44,024 nucleotides of DNA from Dongia mobilis. GTDB taxonomy: Bacteria; Pseudomonadota; Alphaproteobacteria; Dongiales; Dongiaceae. Numbering within the stretch: the stretch's first letter is position 1; the number at the start of each line of letters is the position of its first letter. This document shows positions 767-44,024 of this stretch, in pieces. The DNA lies in NCBI RefSeq assembly GCF_945906275.1, contig NZ_CAMDRA010000006.1, positions 1 to 44,024 on the forward strand, written 5' to 3'. Position numbers and translations under genes: made by a program. The notes beneath the pieces were generated by a model that did no database searches, was not told the DNA's origin, and saw only the letters and a list, made by a program, of their open reading frames with translations.

Positions 767-1738
767 ATGGGACGTGTTGTTGATTGTGCGGTCTACGAGG
801 CCGGGCGCCGGGTCGGCAGCCTCGACATCAACGATCCCGAACAGATGCGGATCGAACCGGGCCGTGTGATCTGGATCGGCCTTTACGAGCCCAGCCAGGA
901 TGAACTGGCCAAGCTGCAGGGTTATTTCGGTCTGCATGAACTGGCAATCGAGGACGCCTATCGCGCTCATCAGCGGCCCAAGCTTGAGGTCTATGGCGAG
1001 ACCCTGTTCGTGGTGATGAAGACGGCGCAGCTGGAAGGCTCGCATGTTGCCATGGGCGAGACCAGCTTCTTCATCGGCCGCGGCTACGTGATCACCGTGC
1101 GGCATGGCCCGTCAACCAGCTATACCGAGGTGCGCGCTCGCTGCGAACACACGCCGGAGCGATTCAAGAAAGGCGAGGACTTCATCCTCTATGCACTGAT
1201 GGACTTCATCGTCGATCGCTATTTCCCGATCGTGGACAGCATCGAGGACGATATCGAGAAGCTGGAGGAGGCGGTGCTTGACGGCAAGAGCACGCTCGAT
1301 GTCCTTGAGGAGATCGTGGTGCTGCGCCGTGACCTGCTGCACCTTCGCCATGCAGTGGCGCCGCTGCCGGAAATCTGCCAGCGTCTGATGCGCTACGATA
1401 TGGCGCTCATTGATCGCAATACGCATCCATACTTTCGCGATGTGTTCGATCACAGCACGATCCTGCTCGACCGCATCGAGAATCTGCGCGAATTGATCAA
1501 GACAGTGGTCGATACCAAGATGCTGATGAGCGCCATGAAGCAGAACGAGGTCATGCGGCAATTGGCGGCCTGGGCTGCCATGCTGGCGGTTCCCACGGCC
1601 GTCGCCGGCATCTATGGCATGAACTTCGAGCACATGCCGGAATTGACCTGGAAATACGGCTATTTCAGCGTGCTTGGGCTGGTCTTCGCCATTTGTGGAT
1701 TGCTGTTCTGGCGCTTCAAGCGGTCCGGCTGGCTTTAG
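767..1738 (+). CDS. corA: CorA-family magnesium/divalent cation transporter
   Basis: 323 aa, the usual CorA length. The long N-terminal cytoplasmic part is acidic and helical (for example IVDSIEDDIEKLEEAVLDGK). The C-terminus has two membrane helices, with the CorA pore signature YGMN right after the first one (GIYGMNFEHMPEL), then a second helix and a basic tail (FKRSGWL). CorA proteins form pentameric Mg2+ channels in the inner membrane. The ATG at 767 has a GGCGGAGAA Shine-Dalgarno stretch just upstream. The 263 nt between this gene and the divergent sigma factor hold no convincing ORF. The stop overlaps the convergent pspF stop by a few bases, leaving no room for a conventional terminator. 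Confidence 0.93.
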   Translation: MGRVVDCAVYEAGRRVGSLDINDPEQMRIEPGRVIWIGLYEPSQDELAKLQGYFGLHELAIEDAYRAHQRPKLEVYGETLFVVMKTAQLEGSHVAMGETSFFIGRGYVITVRHGPSTSYTEVRARCEHTPERFKKGEDFILYALMDFIVDRYFPIVDSIEDDIEKLEEAVLDGKSTLDVLEEIVVLRRDLLHLRHAVAPLPEICQRLMRYDMALIDRNTHPYFRDVFDHSTILLDRIENLRELIKTVVDTKMLMSAMKQNEVMRQLAAWAAMLAVPTAVAGIYGMNFEHMPELTWKYGYFSVLGLVFAICGLLFWRFKRSGWL

Positions 1739-8810: not shown

Positions 8811-9646
8811 AGTTTGATCTCCCTCCCGCGATGCTTGGCCAGCAGCACGACAAACAGCGGCAAACCGGCCAACAGCAGCATGAGCATGAGCATCGCCGCC
8901 GCATAGGGCCAGCCGGTCTCACTTTCCAATGCGCGCTGCAGCCACTCGCTCGCTTGCTCGAAATCGCCGGTGCCAAGCAGTCGCGGCTCCAGGAAGCTGC
9001 CGACCGAACCGCAGAAGACGATCGCCGCGGCAAGTGCCGCAAGACGGCGGTTGAGCGGCCAAAGAATGTCGATGAGCAGCACGAAGGCGGTGGCTCCGCA
9101 TTCGCGCGCGGCGTCGAGGACAGAGCGATCGACGCGTGCAAAGCCAGCAGCGAGGCACAGGGCTGCCGGCGGCAGCCAGGCATGGACACTGGCGATCAGT
9201 TCGGCGGAAAAGCCGGCCAGCAAGTCGACAGGAATGAAATTGATCAGCGCCAGATCCTTGAAGGCCTGCATCCAGCCCAGGATGCGCATGCCTGGATCGA
9301 AGAACCACATCAGGATGATGAACCCGAGCGCAAGTCGGCCGAGAAAGCGGCGGCGTATGGCGATCAAGAAGGCAAGAGGCGTGGCCAGCAGCGTCGTGAT
9401 CAGGGTCGACAAGGTGGCCAGCAGCATGCTGTTCAGCAAGGCTGTGCGTGCCTCGATCGATCCTAGAACTCTCAACCAAGCTGTGCCGGTCATTGTGGTG
9501 GGCTGGTCAGGGGCACCCTGCAGGCTGAGCCATAGGACCATCAATAGCGGTGCTGCGAAGAAGCATATCTGCGCGAGGATCGCGATCCAGGCGAGGCCCA
9601 TGAGCGGACCCTGCAAGATGCCGGCACGCGGGGATTCCCGTGTCAT
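8807..9646 (-). CDS. ABC transporter permease, PotB-like
   Basis: 279 aa from the ATG at 9646 (MTRESPRAGILQG). The track's 522-aa ORF runs back in another frame through the ATP-binding gene and its N-terminal half is a shadow. Six or so membrane segments are visible (for example LMGLAWIAILAQICFFAAPL). The EAA-type loop reads DAARECGATAFVLLIDILWP. It pairs with the next permease to form the membrane channel. The ATG shares one base with the TGA of the upstream ATP-binding gene (TGATG), so translation is probably coupled. Confidence 0.85.
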   Translation of the reverse strand: MTRESPRAGILQGPLMGLAWIAILAQICFFAAPLLMVLWLSLQGAPDQPTTMTGTAWLRVLGSIEARTALLNSMLLATLSTLITTLLATPLAFLIAIRRRFLGRLALGFIILMWFFDPGMRILGWMQAFKDLALINFIPVDLLAGFSAELIASVHAWLPPAALCLAAGFARVDRSVLDAARECGATAFVLLIDILWPLNRRLAALAAAIVFCGSVGSFLEPRLLGTGDFEQASEWLQRALESETGWPYAAAMLMLMLLLAGLPLFVVLLAKHRGREIKL

Positions 9647-38925: not shown

Positions 38926-41401
<2,476 letters not shown>

Positions 41402-41425: not shown

Positions 41426-41896
41426 TCAGGCGGCAAGTGAATTATTGTCTCGCAGGTTTATGGAAATCTCAAGCCGGGTGGGTGTCGCGTTTCGGAGCAG
41501 GTCCAGCACCGGGTCATGCCGTTCGACTGTGATTCGCAGCCGTTCCAGGGCATAAATATCTGCGGAACTAGAAATTCTCGCTTCAGCGCGCAAAGAACTC
41601 GGGCCTGGGCGGACGCTGTCCGACGTGGCTGCAAGCCCATTGAGATCCAAGCCCGCTTCGATGCGGATTTCAACCTCGTTGAGCGGAATGTCGAGGGCCG
41701 CGGCAAAACGGCGATAGCTAGCGGCAAGGCTGCCGGCGAGCACCTCCAGGATCCGCTGCACATGGTCGAGTTCCGGTCGCCGCGCCTGGGGCGCTTCCAC
41801 GCCGGCGCGCGCTTTCAACGTGACCTGGGCGCAATGCGGGCTGCGCCGGATCTCGTCCTGCAATCGGGAAATGGTGGTGTCGGTTTCGGTCGTCAT
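41426..41896 (-). CDS. OsmC-like protein lacking the catalytic cysteine
   Basis: 156 aa. The OsmC fold is recognisable from LEVLAGSLAASYRRFAAALD, LNEVEIRIEAGLDLNGL, SVRPGPSSLRAEARISSS and the end RHDPVLDLLRNATPTRLEI. In OsmC/Ohr peroxidases the first helix holds a reactive Cys (GSC-type); aligned from the following Tyr, that position is Ser (about residue 56). The second Cys position is also not Cys (HDPVLD). Peroxidase activity is therefore unlikely. A strong GAGGAGG ribosome-binding site lies 9 nt before the ATG. It is the first gene behind the SAM-II riboswitch and is followed by metY, suggesting a role in sulfur or methionine metabolism. Confidence 0.75.
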   Translation of the reverse strand: MTTETDTTISRLQDEIRRSPHCAQVTLKARAGVEAPQARRPELDHVQRILEVLAGSLAASYRRFAAALDIPLNEVEIRIEAGLDLNGLAATSDSVRPGPSSLRAEARISSSADIYALERLRITVERHDPVLDLLRNATPTRLEISINLRDNNSLAA

Positions 41897-41947
41897 CGAA
41901 GATAGCCCTCCTCAAAGGCAGTCACATCCGCCCGGGGCCAAGGCACT

Positions 41948-41999
41948 GCAGCGCTTTAGCTCTTGGTGACGCGGTGCAAGCTGCCCCTCAAATCCCGCG
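41948..41999 (-). promoter_or_regulatory. SAM-II riboswitch upstream of the OsmC-like/metY operon
   Basis: Minus-strand RNA. P1 is CGCGG pairing with CCGCG. Loop 1 begins GATTTG and ends CTTGCA, the conserved SAM-II loop. The 3' part has the conserved GCTAAA. The pseudoknot P2 pairs GCAGC in the loop with GCTGC after GCTAAAGC. From P1 to the end of P2 is 52 nt, the same size as the known minimal SAM-II aptamer, and the order of all conserved elements matches it. The regulated gene set (metY) is a classic SAM-II target. The gene start is about 52 nt downstream, so the switch probably acts on translation or on a further hairpin. Confidence 0.85.
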
Positions 42000-42032
42000 G
42001 GTCCGTTGTGGTGGACCAGGCCCGGAAACGAC

Positions 42033-42060
42033 AAAACCCGCCGCGTCAGGGACGGGCGGG
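42033..42060 (-). terminator. Intrinsic terminator inside the metY leader
   Basis: Minus strand: CCCGCC-CGTC, a 3-nt loop, then GACG, one bulged C, and GGCGGG, followed by TTTT. This makes a 10-bp stem with a U-run, placed 3 nt after the stop of the 13-codon ORF and about 34 nt before the SAM-II aptamer. Readthrough would be needed for metY expression from the upstream promoter. Confidence 0.82.
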
Positions 42061-42063
42061 CAG

Positions 42064-42105
42064 CTAAAACACTGGTTTCATGCCGAAACCGCGCTTTAGC
42101 TGCAT
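42064..42105 (-). CDS. Putative 13-aa leader peptide before the terminator
   Basis: Too short for the track. ATG at 42105, then MQLKRGFGMKPVF and TAG. GAGG sits 11 nt upstream of the ATG. The ORF lies between a good promoter and an intrinsic terminator, the position of an attenuation leader peptide. It carries two Met codons but no run of a single control codon. The sequence also forms a long hairpin (GCAGCTAAA with TTTAGCTGC, with an inner GGTTTC/GAAACC stem). It shares AGCTAAAGCGC with the riboswitch downstream. Translation is predicted, not shown. Confidence 0.6.
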   Translation of the reverse strand: MQLKRGFGMKPVF

Positions 42106-42125
42106 TTATAAGGCACCTCAACGTC

Positions 42126-42154
42126 GGATAGAACATTTGGCCACCCGGCGTCAA
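42126..42154 (-). promoter_or_regulatory. Sigma-70-type promoter for the leader and metY operon
   Basis: Minus strand: CTTGACG (-35) and CTATCC (-10) with a 17-nt spacer, close to the alphaproteobacterial housekeeping consensus. The start site would fall near 42120, only about 15 nt before the leader ORF, which leaves just enough room for its GAGG. Confidence 0.65.
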
Positions 42155-42244
42155 GTGTTTGATTTTATTATGTCTGATGGCTGTTGTCGGATGACCGAAA
42201 GGTGAACGACATTCGACATTGGCGCGCAACGTGGCGCGTTACGA

Positions 42245-42448
42245 TCACTTGAACTGCTCCTTTTCTTCCAACTCGCTGCAGTCGCCGCAGACGTGCCGCC
42301 ACTCTTCGCGCTCGCCCAACTCGACCAGCCAGCCGCGCCGGCGCGCTTCGTTGGTCAGAGCCTGAACGTCGCGGGCGGGGTGGACAACCTTGCGGCTTTC
42401 GCAGATGTCACAGGTGGCGGAAACGCCCTTGCCAGTGAAGCGGATCAT
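42245..42448 (-). CDS. Small CxxC...CxxC protein, probably phage-derived
   Basis: 67 aa. Two CxxC pairs (TCDICESRKV and HVCGDCSELE) suggest a zinc ribbon. AAGGAAA precedes the ATG at a good distance. It lies 16 nt downstream of the DNA polymerase fragment, an arrangement seen in phage replication modules. The function is unknown. Confidence 0.65.
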   Translation of the reverse strand: MIRFTGKGVSATCDICESRKVVHPARDVQALTNEARRRGWLVELGEREEWRHVCGDCSELEEKEQFK

Positions 42449-42464
42449 ATGCAGTTTTCCTTAT

Positions 42465-42731
42465 CTATTTGCGGTAGCGTCGGCCGATCCAGCCGGACGC
42501 AGCGATCGGCAAACCCCCGGCCCAAGCTGGGGGCTCGGCCAGTAGCTGCTCAAAATGCTCTTTGGAGCCCCGGCCCTTGCGGATGCGGGCCACGGCCTGA
42601 TCGTGGACCGACAACACCGTCTGGTATCCGTGCCGTTCGATCCGGACCATCGCTTCAGCCATGACATCCCTGGCGACGCCGGACGTGACGTTTTCGGCGC
42701 AACCGGAATACCCGGCCGCTTCAATGAGGGA
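42465..42731 (-). pseudogene. C-terminal remnant of a phage family A DNA polymerase
   Basis: The frame is open for 88 codons back to a TAA at 42732. It matches the last part of phage T7-like/Pol I palm domains: GCAENVTSGVARDVMAEAMV, then HGYQTVLSVHDQAVARI, and the end WAGGLPIAASGWIGRRYRK. The catalytic HDE of motif C reads HDQ. The rest of the polymerase is absent upstream in any frame I checked. The track's 65-aa ORF (from 42662) is the 3' part of this. It is a relic of a prophage or similar element and is unlikely to be functional. Confidence 0.8.
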
Positions 42732-42734
42732 TTA

Positions 42735-43053
42735 TTTCTGCGGCGCTTACAAACGAGCCTGTTGCTGCCGAGCTATCCATTCACTGGCTGTACGCCTATC
42801 CCCCGCGGGACGATGGATGAGGCGAGTTCGCCAGGGCTCTTGGATCGGTCGCACCGTCGCGATCAGACCGCGCGTCAGATTGGACCTCCTCATTCTTCTG
42901 ATCCCATACTGGGAGAGCCGAAGGGTTGATCCCGAAGAGAAGAGAGCACCGCGAGCGACATCAAACACCGTAGCCGTGGAAAGCCTGAAAGTGCTTGACC
43001 CCAAACCGCCGAATAGAGAAGAGCCAATATTGGACGCGAAAAGGGGGTCGCTA
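42735..43053. other. No gene recognised; likely junction of decayed mobile DNA
   Basis: Short overlapping ORFs are present on both strands but none has recognisable motifs or a good start. The base composition seems more AT-rich and the codon pattern less biased than the neighbours. It starts where the polymerase remnant breaks off, consistent with deletion or insertion scars. Confidence 0.4.
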
Positions 43054-43188
43054 TTGGAAGCGAACAGACAATCCTCTCTGCTTTGGAGCGCCGTCGGCTG
43101 GGTTCACCGTGAACCGAGCTTGTTCGTGCTGCAGGGGGCGTTTACATTGATCAACCTGCTCGGCATCTATCGGTGGGCGGCGCTTTGA
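43054..43188 (+). CDS. Possible 44-aa membrane peptide or gene fragment
   Basis: The last part of the track's 175-aa ORF (42661-43188) reads SAVGWVHREPSLFVLQGAFT then LINLLGIYRWAAL, which looks like one membrane helix and resembles the end of small multi-helix membrane proteins. A TTG at 43054 follows AGGGGG at a fair distance. The upstream part of the ORF is low-quality sequence. It could be a true tiny protein or the tail of a broken gene. Confidence 0.3.
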   Translation: MEANRQSSLLWSAVGWVHREPSLFVLQGAFTLINLLGIYRWAAL

Positions 43189-43220
43189 AAATGCGGTGCA
43201 AAGCGCAATGAGGACTAACG

Positions 43221-43661
43221 ATGACACCTGAGCAATCGCTCCGGGAGAAGCTGCGCAAGATCGAGGCCCTGTTCTCAGGCGCCGCGACCGATGGAGAACG
43301 GATTGCGGCAGGCGCCGCCGCGAACCGCATCCGCGCCCGCCTCTGCATGGTGGCCGGAAAGGAGAAGGCGATCGAGGTGAAGTTCTCGATCTCCGACATG
43401 TGGTCGCGACAGCTGTTCGTCGCGCTCTGCCGCCGCTACGGGCTTCATCCCTTCCGATATCGCCGGTTGCATCGACAAACCATCATCATCCGGGCGCCGA
43501 AGAGTTTCGTCGACCAGGTGCTGTGGCCGGAGTTCGAAGAACTCAGCGCCGCATTGACCGCCTACCTGTCCGAGATCACCGAAAGGGTCATTCGGGAAGA
43601 AGTGCACGGCGAGACCGGGGAGGCCGATGAGGTCGACGAGCCGCGCCGGATCAGCCGATGA
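43221..43661 (+). CDS. Conserved-type hypothetical protein (DUF2786-like N-terminus)
   Basis: 146 aa. The N-terminus (LREKLRKIEALFSGAATDGE, then RIAAGAAANRIRARL) resembles DUF2786, a helical domain often in phage or plasmid proteins. The middle reads WSRQLFVALCRRYGLHPFRY and the C-terminus is acidic. The start has GAGGA at good spacing. Its stop overlaps the ATG of the nuclease gene. The function is unknown. Confidence 0.7.
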   Translation: MTPEQSLREKLRKIEALFSGAATDGERIAAGAAANRIRARLCMVAGKEKAIEVKFSISDMWSRQLFVALCRRYGLHPFRYRRLHRQTIIIRAPKSFVDQVLWPEFEELSAALTAYLSEITERVIREEVHGETGEADEVDEPRRISR

Positions 43662-44024
43662 CGCAGCGGTTGCTCATAGCCGTGTTCCTTGCTGCAACGG
43701 CCGGCGTCGCGAGCGCGATCGTGCAGTCGTCTAATGTGGGCGTCGCCAGCGTCATCGATGGCGACACACTGGAAATCCACGGTCAGCGCATCCGGCTCCA
43801 CGGAATCGACGCACCCGAAAGCGGGCAATCCTGCGAGAGGGGCGCATTAGAATATCGATGCGGCCAGCAGGCCGCCCTGGCGCTCGCCGACAAGATCGGA
43901 CAGGCAACGATCCGGTGCGAGCAGCGCGACATCGATCGCTACCAGCGAATCGTGGCTGTCTGTCGGCTCGGCAACATGGATCTCAATGCCTGGATGGTCC
44001 GCCAGGGCTGGGCTATCGCTTACC
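43658..44024 (+). CDS. SNase-like thermonuclease, secreted (3' end off window)
   Basis: Not in the track because it is cut by the window end; 122 codons are visible. A signal peptide (LLIAVFLAATAGVASA) is followed by the staphylococcal nuclease-like core ASVIDGDTLEIHGQRIRLHG and IDAPE. The catalytic Arg/Glu of RLHGIDAPE and the later Arg in DRYQRIVAVC are in place, and WMVRQGWAIAY is near the end. It cleaves DNA or RNA with Ca2+. ATGA overlap with the preceding gene suggests coupling. Such genes are common in alphaproteobacterial accessory DNA. Confidence 0.9.
   Translation, partial: MTQRLLIAVFLAATAGVASAIVQSSNVGVASVIDGDTLEIHGQRIRLHGIDAPESGQSCERGALEYRCGQQAALALADKIGQATIRCEQRDIDRYQRIVAVCRLGNMDLNAWMVRQGWAIAY

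Follow-up and report, generated by a model that had tools for sequence, protein, structure and literature searches.

An integrase-carrying element has very probably inserted into the first of two tandem SAM-II riboswitches in front of an OsmC-like/metY operon, leaving a 13-codon ORF as a functionless by-product. The window, that is the whole 44,024-nucleotide stretch of Dongia mobilis DNA analysed, carries the operon on its minus strand in the order aptamer II, OsmC-like ORF (41426-41896) and metY (40088-41401). A preliminary description of the leader had proposed two control steps, in which translation of a leader peptide decides readthrough of a terminator and a SAM-II riboswitch then acts. 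The succession of a terminator and a SAM-II-type aptamer stands, and the letters of all the pieces named are present on the minus strand, but the leader peptide is not a conserved gene and control of readthrough by its translation is not retained. The features of the region are listed below, with the strand in the second place (. where none is given).

40088-41401, -, metY, O-acetylhomoserine aminocarboxypropyltransferase (homocysteine synthase); TIGR01326 at 618 bits (cut-off 495), PF01053
41426-41896, -, OsmC-like small ORF, first cistron, between leader and metY; PF02566 at E=2e-4, below the gathering score, and NF041052, below cut-off
41906-41913, -, Shine-Dalgarno sequence GAGGAGGG of the OsmC-like cistron, by direct reading
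41936-42008, -, aptamer II, an intact SAM-II variant whose 3′ pseudoknot strand follows a variable hairpin insert; sub-threshold covariance score, cross-genome core
42036-42057, -, intrinsic terminator, formerly of riboswitch I; from folding and a terminator scan, with a terminator at the same place in relatives
42060-42103, -, hairpin of the aptamer I core GCAGCTAAA with TTTAGCTGC; ligand-free fold in congeners
42064-42105, -, 13-codon ORF of the preliminary description, overlapping the aptamer I core and the hairpin
42089-42111, -, leftover 3′ half of aptamer I (TTATAAATGCAGCTAAAGCGCGG), in agreement with congeners, whose aptamer I is complete, as far as the junction
42105-42111, -, 7-bp junction core TTATAAA at the right junction, attR-like; the left copy is on contig C135 of the same genome, ending at 9312
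42112-44024,., right end of the integrated element, continuing past the contig end, with a polymerase fragment, a plasmid-type ORF and an SNase-like nuclease
42126-42190, -, outward promoter candidates in element DNA
42468-42731, -, phage-type DNA polymerase fragment; phrog_7766 at 1.6e-22, C-terminal part of phage DNA polymerases only
43221-43661,., plasmid-type ORF with homologues on conjugative plasmids
43658-44024,., SNase-like nuclease, PF00565

The ORF called for hemB (ALAD), 38926-40278 on the minus strand, runs into the end of metY, and its PF00490 match starts at residue 129; the true hemB start probably lies further in than called.

The leader in the window

The 13-codon ORF runs from ATG to TAG at 42105-42064 (minus strand) and encodes MQLKRGFGMKPVF, and the hairpin of the intrinsic terminator (42057-42036, minus strand) follows about 6 nt past its stop; both are confirmed. 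The leader folds better than shuffled sequences (z = -4.07), with a long hairpin at 42103-42060 and then the terminator. The GAGG noted upstream of the ORF is present, but it has no counterpart in relatives, and everything upstream of 42112, promoter or promoters and GAGG included, is foreign element DNA. The promoter proposed earlier, TTGACG-N17-CTATCC (42154-42126), is readable by eye but weak by consensus; a promoter scan picks CCGACA-N17-TAAAAT (42190-42162) instead, with a 9/12 promoter match (shuffles, 0.0 ± 0.2).

The tandem riboswitch in relatives

A search with the leader DNA gave matches in 15 of 17 family genomes, the window's own genome counted. Twelve relatives have a full tandem before the OsmC-like gene/metY, consisting of a TTGACA promoter, aptamer I, an intrinsic terminator, aptamer II and the start codon; in G009 the tandem is present with a one-base insertion. 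At the place of the 13-codon ORF, relatives have an aptamer I of the form CGCGCC-GATTTGA-GCCTCAGCTTGC-GGGCGCG-TTATAAATGCAGCTAAAGCG. A conserved TTGAC(A) promoter hexamer lies upstream of it, and the terminator and aptamer II come downstream. Aptamer I of the relatives has the characters of a SAM-II riboswitch, namely P1, GATTTGA, CAGCTTGC, the GCTAAAG core and terminator switching, the last predicted by folding in sister genera and not in the window's genus. The tandem was also found in loci L023-L026 and L029, from metagenome-assembled Rhodospirillales-type or unplaced alphaproteobacterial/proteobacterial genomes; the second aptamer of L025 was read in the matching genome G015. On this comparison of sequences, the ancestral OsmC-like/metY leader is a tandem SAM-II riboswitch, and its first stage is itself a SAM-II riboswitch in relatives. 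Loci L143, L151, L153, L157 and L159, in the same family, have a lone SAM-II riboswitch of the aptamer I type, in most cases followed by a terminator-like hairpin, with no second aptamer.

The preliminary description had made its leader peptide depend on conservation of the short ORF among relatives, and start, stop and codons are not kept there. The equivalent position reads MQLKRGF* in G005, MQLKRGFR* in G002 and MQLKRGSVKEISF* in G003; in G007, the closest congener, the frame runs to 19 codons, and elsewhere to 29-47 codons or longer. The tandem-bearing relative G011 starts with GTG, and the tandem-bearing outgroup loci L026 and L029 have a non-start codon (TAC, TTT) at this place. No Shine-Dalgarno site precedes the equivalent of the ORF in relatives, and neither the stop, the length nor such a site is common to them. 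The part that stays the same is the aptamer I nucleotide core, ATGCAGCTAAAGCG. By this reading MQLKR is the aptamer I core read as codons, the peptide is a by-product, and the 13-codon ORF is without function of its own. Conserved RNA letters read as codons can thus mimic a leader peptide, a trap that is corrected here.

Two halves of aptamer I on two contigs

Aptamer I of the window's genome is split between two contigs. One piece, on C135 of this genome (G000) and ending at 9312, carries the native promoter, the P1 5′ strand, GATTTGA, CAGCTTGC and the P1 3′ strand, and diverges after TTATAAA; the window carries aptamer I from TTATAAATGCAGCTAAAG onwards (3′ half, 42111-42089, minus strand). 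The covariance match of the C135 piece to SAM_alpha is weak (28.5 bits), and two ordinary SAM_alpha riboswitches are present elsewhere in the same genome. In alignments to five congeners, the match of C135 ends at 9312 and that of the window at 42110-42117. The ends of the two alignments lie 5-12 bp apart in every one of the five, that is, the flanks abut. The left junction is GCGGGCGCG|TTATAAA|AACTGAC, the right junction GAGGTGCC|TTATAAA|TGCAGC, and the empty site in G007 GCGGGCGCG|TTATAAA|TGCAGC. The ambiguity of the junction is exactly 7 bp, and the core TTATAAA is the same in all three sequences; the insertion point falls within aptamer I, between the P1 3′ strand and the conserved GCTAAAG core.

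A search of the window's genome gave no intact copy of this type of aptamer I; the 5′-half pattern occurs there once, at the broken copy. Wherever else in the family the pattern occurs as an exact copy, its own 3′ half follows. Restoration of aptamer I by the element ends was considered and ruled out, as ATTTGA is missing from the relevant strand in approximately 300 nt of the right end and GCTAAAG is absent at the left border. Between the junction and the terminator's end the leader differs from that of G007 at only two positions, and the two genomes have the same aptamer II sequence; the insertion therefore looks recent.

The probable integrated element

A tyrosine recombinase of 377 amino acids lies just inside the left border and reads toward it (C135:9417-10550, minus strand), with its stop about 100 nt from the left junction. 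It matches PF00589 (6.7e-15) and phrog_1 (9.8e-39). Four copies of the word TGTCGGA lie in 100 nt at the left end and one in 120 nt at the right end, whereas none of 2549 host windows of 220 nt has more than one; these words are candidate recombinase arm sites. The polymerase fragment at 42468-42731 is apparently a remnant inside the element. Homologues of the ORF at 43221-43661 were found on plasmids of Bradyrhizobium, Novosphingobium and Sphingobium (15 of 24 classed as conjugative). Neither this ORF nor the integrase was found in the relatives searched.

The borders are on two contigs of a 271-contig assembly, and the element runs off both contig ends; we infer that one element spans both borders. 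No close homologue of the integrase was found in 385 alphaproteobacterial genomes, viral contigs or plasmids; a phage homologue with 32% identity was all that the searches gave, and this integration was not seen in any other genome. The predicted attP occurs in the genome only as attL itself, and was not found in the viral contigs. The viral contigs gave 29 matches to the 3′ core of aptamer I.

Folding of the leaders

When aptamer I was locked, the predicted terminator probability rose from 0.05-0.37 to approximately 1.0 in four sister-genus genomes, and from 0.51-0.73 to 1.0 in two further genomes. The sister-genus aptamer I is therefore predicted to be an OFF switch, whose core pairs with the terminator region in the ligand-free state. 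For the window's own genus, equilibrium folding gives the terminator in both states (0.93-1.00), with the aptamer I core in a long hairpin just upstream of it, and coupling of the terminator to SAM may be kinetic or weak in this genus. Locking aptamer II gave no consistent change in predicted access to the Shine-Dalgarno sequence.

Aptamer II

The SAM-II aptamer of the preliminary description, placed here at 42008-41936 (minus strand), is borne out by comparison of core and pseudoknot, but its covariance-model scores do not exceed threshold: 20.5 bits with SAM_alpha (gathering score 36) and 16.1 with SAM-II RF01726 (gathering score 44). A default Rfam scan of the window gave no match. The blocks ATTTGA, GCTTGC and GCTAAAGCG are invariant in 14 genomes, and the SAM-II blocks (G)ATTTGA, CTTGC and GCTAAAG are present in order. 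P1 (CGCGG/CCGCG) is possible in all, but invariant. The pseudoknot helix P2a covaries in a wider set, from GGGC/GCCC (GGGG(C)/(G)CCCC) to GGGA/TCCC in relatives, as judged by eye on anchored segments. The group is marked by a variable hairpin, which lies between GCTAAAG and the 3′ pseudoknot strand. The SAM-II nature of aptamer II is accepted here because the core is common to 14 genomes and the pseudoknot covaries.

The variant also occurs at L018 (G016; 1477-1553, minus strand), directly before a cysG-like siroheme synthase gene, and at L027, directly before metY with no OsmC-like gene. On these sequences the variant appears to be a sulfur-assimilation regulator missed by Rfam thresholds.

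Proposed course of events and alternatives

We propose that the ancestral leader had aptamer I with an intrinsic terminator, and variant aptamer II just upstream of the Shine-Dalgarno sequence of the first cistron, and that a tyrosine-recombinase element inserted inside aptamer I at the 7-bp core TTATAAA. The transcription start would then have to lie in the element or beyond, with 42190-42162 as a candidate site, and the operon would now be transcribed from a promoter in the element end. Since the P1 strands and L1 are gone after insertion, the terminator could not answer SAM through aptamer I; it would be a terminator of fixed strength without a SAM sensor. Aptamer II would be the only sensor left on the window's leader and would probably act on translation.

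A chromosomal rearrangement or an assembly error could also have separated the two halves of aptamer I, and the assembly is indeed fragmented, with the halves on separate contigs. Neither would readily account for a common 7-bp core at both borders, an integrase at one border with repeats at both ends, and on the other side an element gene that is missing in relatives, and we regard this origin of the split as quite improbable. Attenuation by a leader peptide, in which translation of MQLKRGFGMKPVF controls the terminator before SAM-II controls a second step, is more improbable still. It would draw on an ORF with an upstream GAGG and a terminator soon after its stop, an arrangement seen in one genome only, in which the GAGG belongs to element DNA and the ORF start falls on the aptamer core. 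Relatives do not conserve its stop, its length or its Shine-Dalgarno site, and it has no run of regulatory codons (2 Met in 13 codons), so that no conserved short ORF with the start, stop, regulatory codons and Shine-Dalgarno site of a peptide-mediated attenuator was found. The leader-peptide reading is rejected because the ORF is not conserved among relatives.

It is less easily dismissed, though unlikely, that aptamer II is a decayed SAM-II relative or one with a different ligand, and no SAM sensor. Its sub-threshold Rfam score and its hairpin insert would fit such a view. A third point is that pairing is also possible between the 3′ pseudoknot strand and the Shine-Dalgarno region (GTGGCCC/GGGCCAC in G015); taken alone, this would predict an ON switch. 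Against this stand the invariance of ATTTGA, GCTTGC and GCTAAAGCG in the 14 genomes and the position of this form before cysG and metY at other loci. The invariant blocks and this gene context therefore point to an aptamer under selection and tied to sulfur metabolism.

A broader proposal is that the SAM-II riboswitch is a specific attachment site of the integrative element, that integration removes the transcription-step SAM sensor from the metY operon and supplies a promoter, and that methionine control changes its mode whenever the element is gained or lost; with one integration of this kind seen, we give this somewhat less than even weight.

Relation to known systems

Integrative elements use tRNA, tmRNA or sRNA genes as attachment sites, and mobile elements favour conserved structured-RNA genes such as tRNAs. 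The present element resembles these in having a tyrosine recombinase, a short identical core and an insertion in a conserved structured RNA, but its target is a cis-acting riboswitch, which is restored at neither border. A riboswitch as insertion point would add cis-regulatory RNAs to the targets of mobile elements, and each gain or loss of the element would then change metabolic regulation. Our literature search gave no account of a mobile element integrating inside a riboswitch, an absence that is no proof of priority.

Tandem SAM-II riboswitches have been described in 44 examples, some of them with aptamer 1 followed by a terminator and aptamer 2 at the ribosome binding site (PMC9481103), so that the ancestral architecture was already known. 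The relatives studied here are alike in having aptamer I, a terminator, and aptamer II beside the first start codon, whereas the window's aptamer I is cut by a mobile element and its aptamer II is a hairpin-insert variant missed by the Rfam threshold. The SAM-II/SAM-V tandem of Ca. Pelagibacter (PMC9481103, PMC11508383) likewise combines a transcription step with a later translation step, both driven by SAM sensors; here, in contrast, a SAM-II-like aptamer with the core GCTAAAGCG takes the second place, and SAM-V was not among the covariance models matched. In S. meliloti, SAM-II controls metZ by termination and metA by sequestration of the Shine-Dalgarno sequence (PMC9373788). These too are alphaproteobacterial SAM-II riboswitches before methionine genes, but they are single, with no tandem and no insertion.

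The SAM-II variant of the aptamer II type, at approximately 1501-1574 of L019, L020 and L021 (G003, G005 and G007), also precedes a conserved 21-aa ORF. The ORF ends in GTCC and has several Cys codons (MNTDREIRILITALCCGGTCC, MKPRQEPRIHFTASCRSGTCC and MNTLPIPVTSASCYCRMGTCC), and is followed by a hairpin-like repeat, a conserved ORF and then a LysR-type gene. It is a better candidate than the window's ORF for a translated leader coupled to SAM-II.
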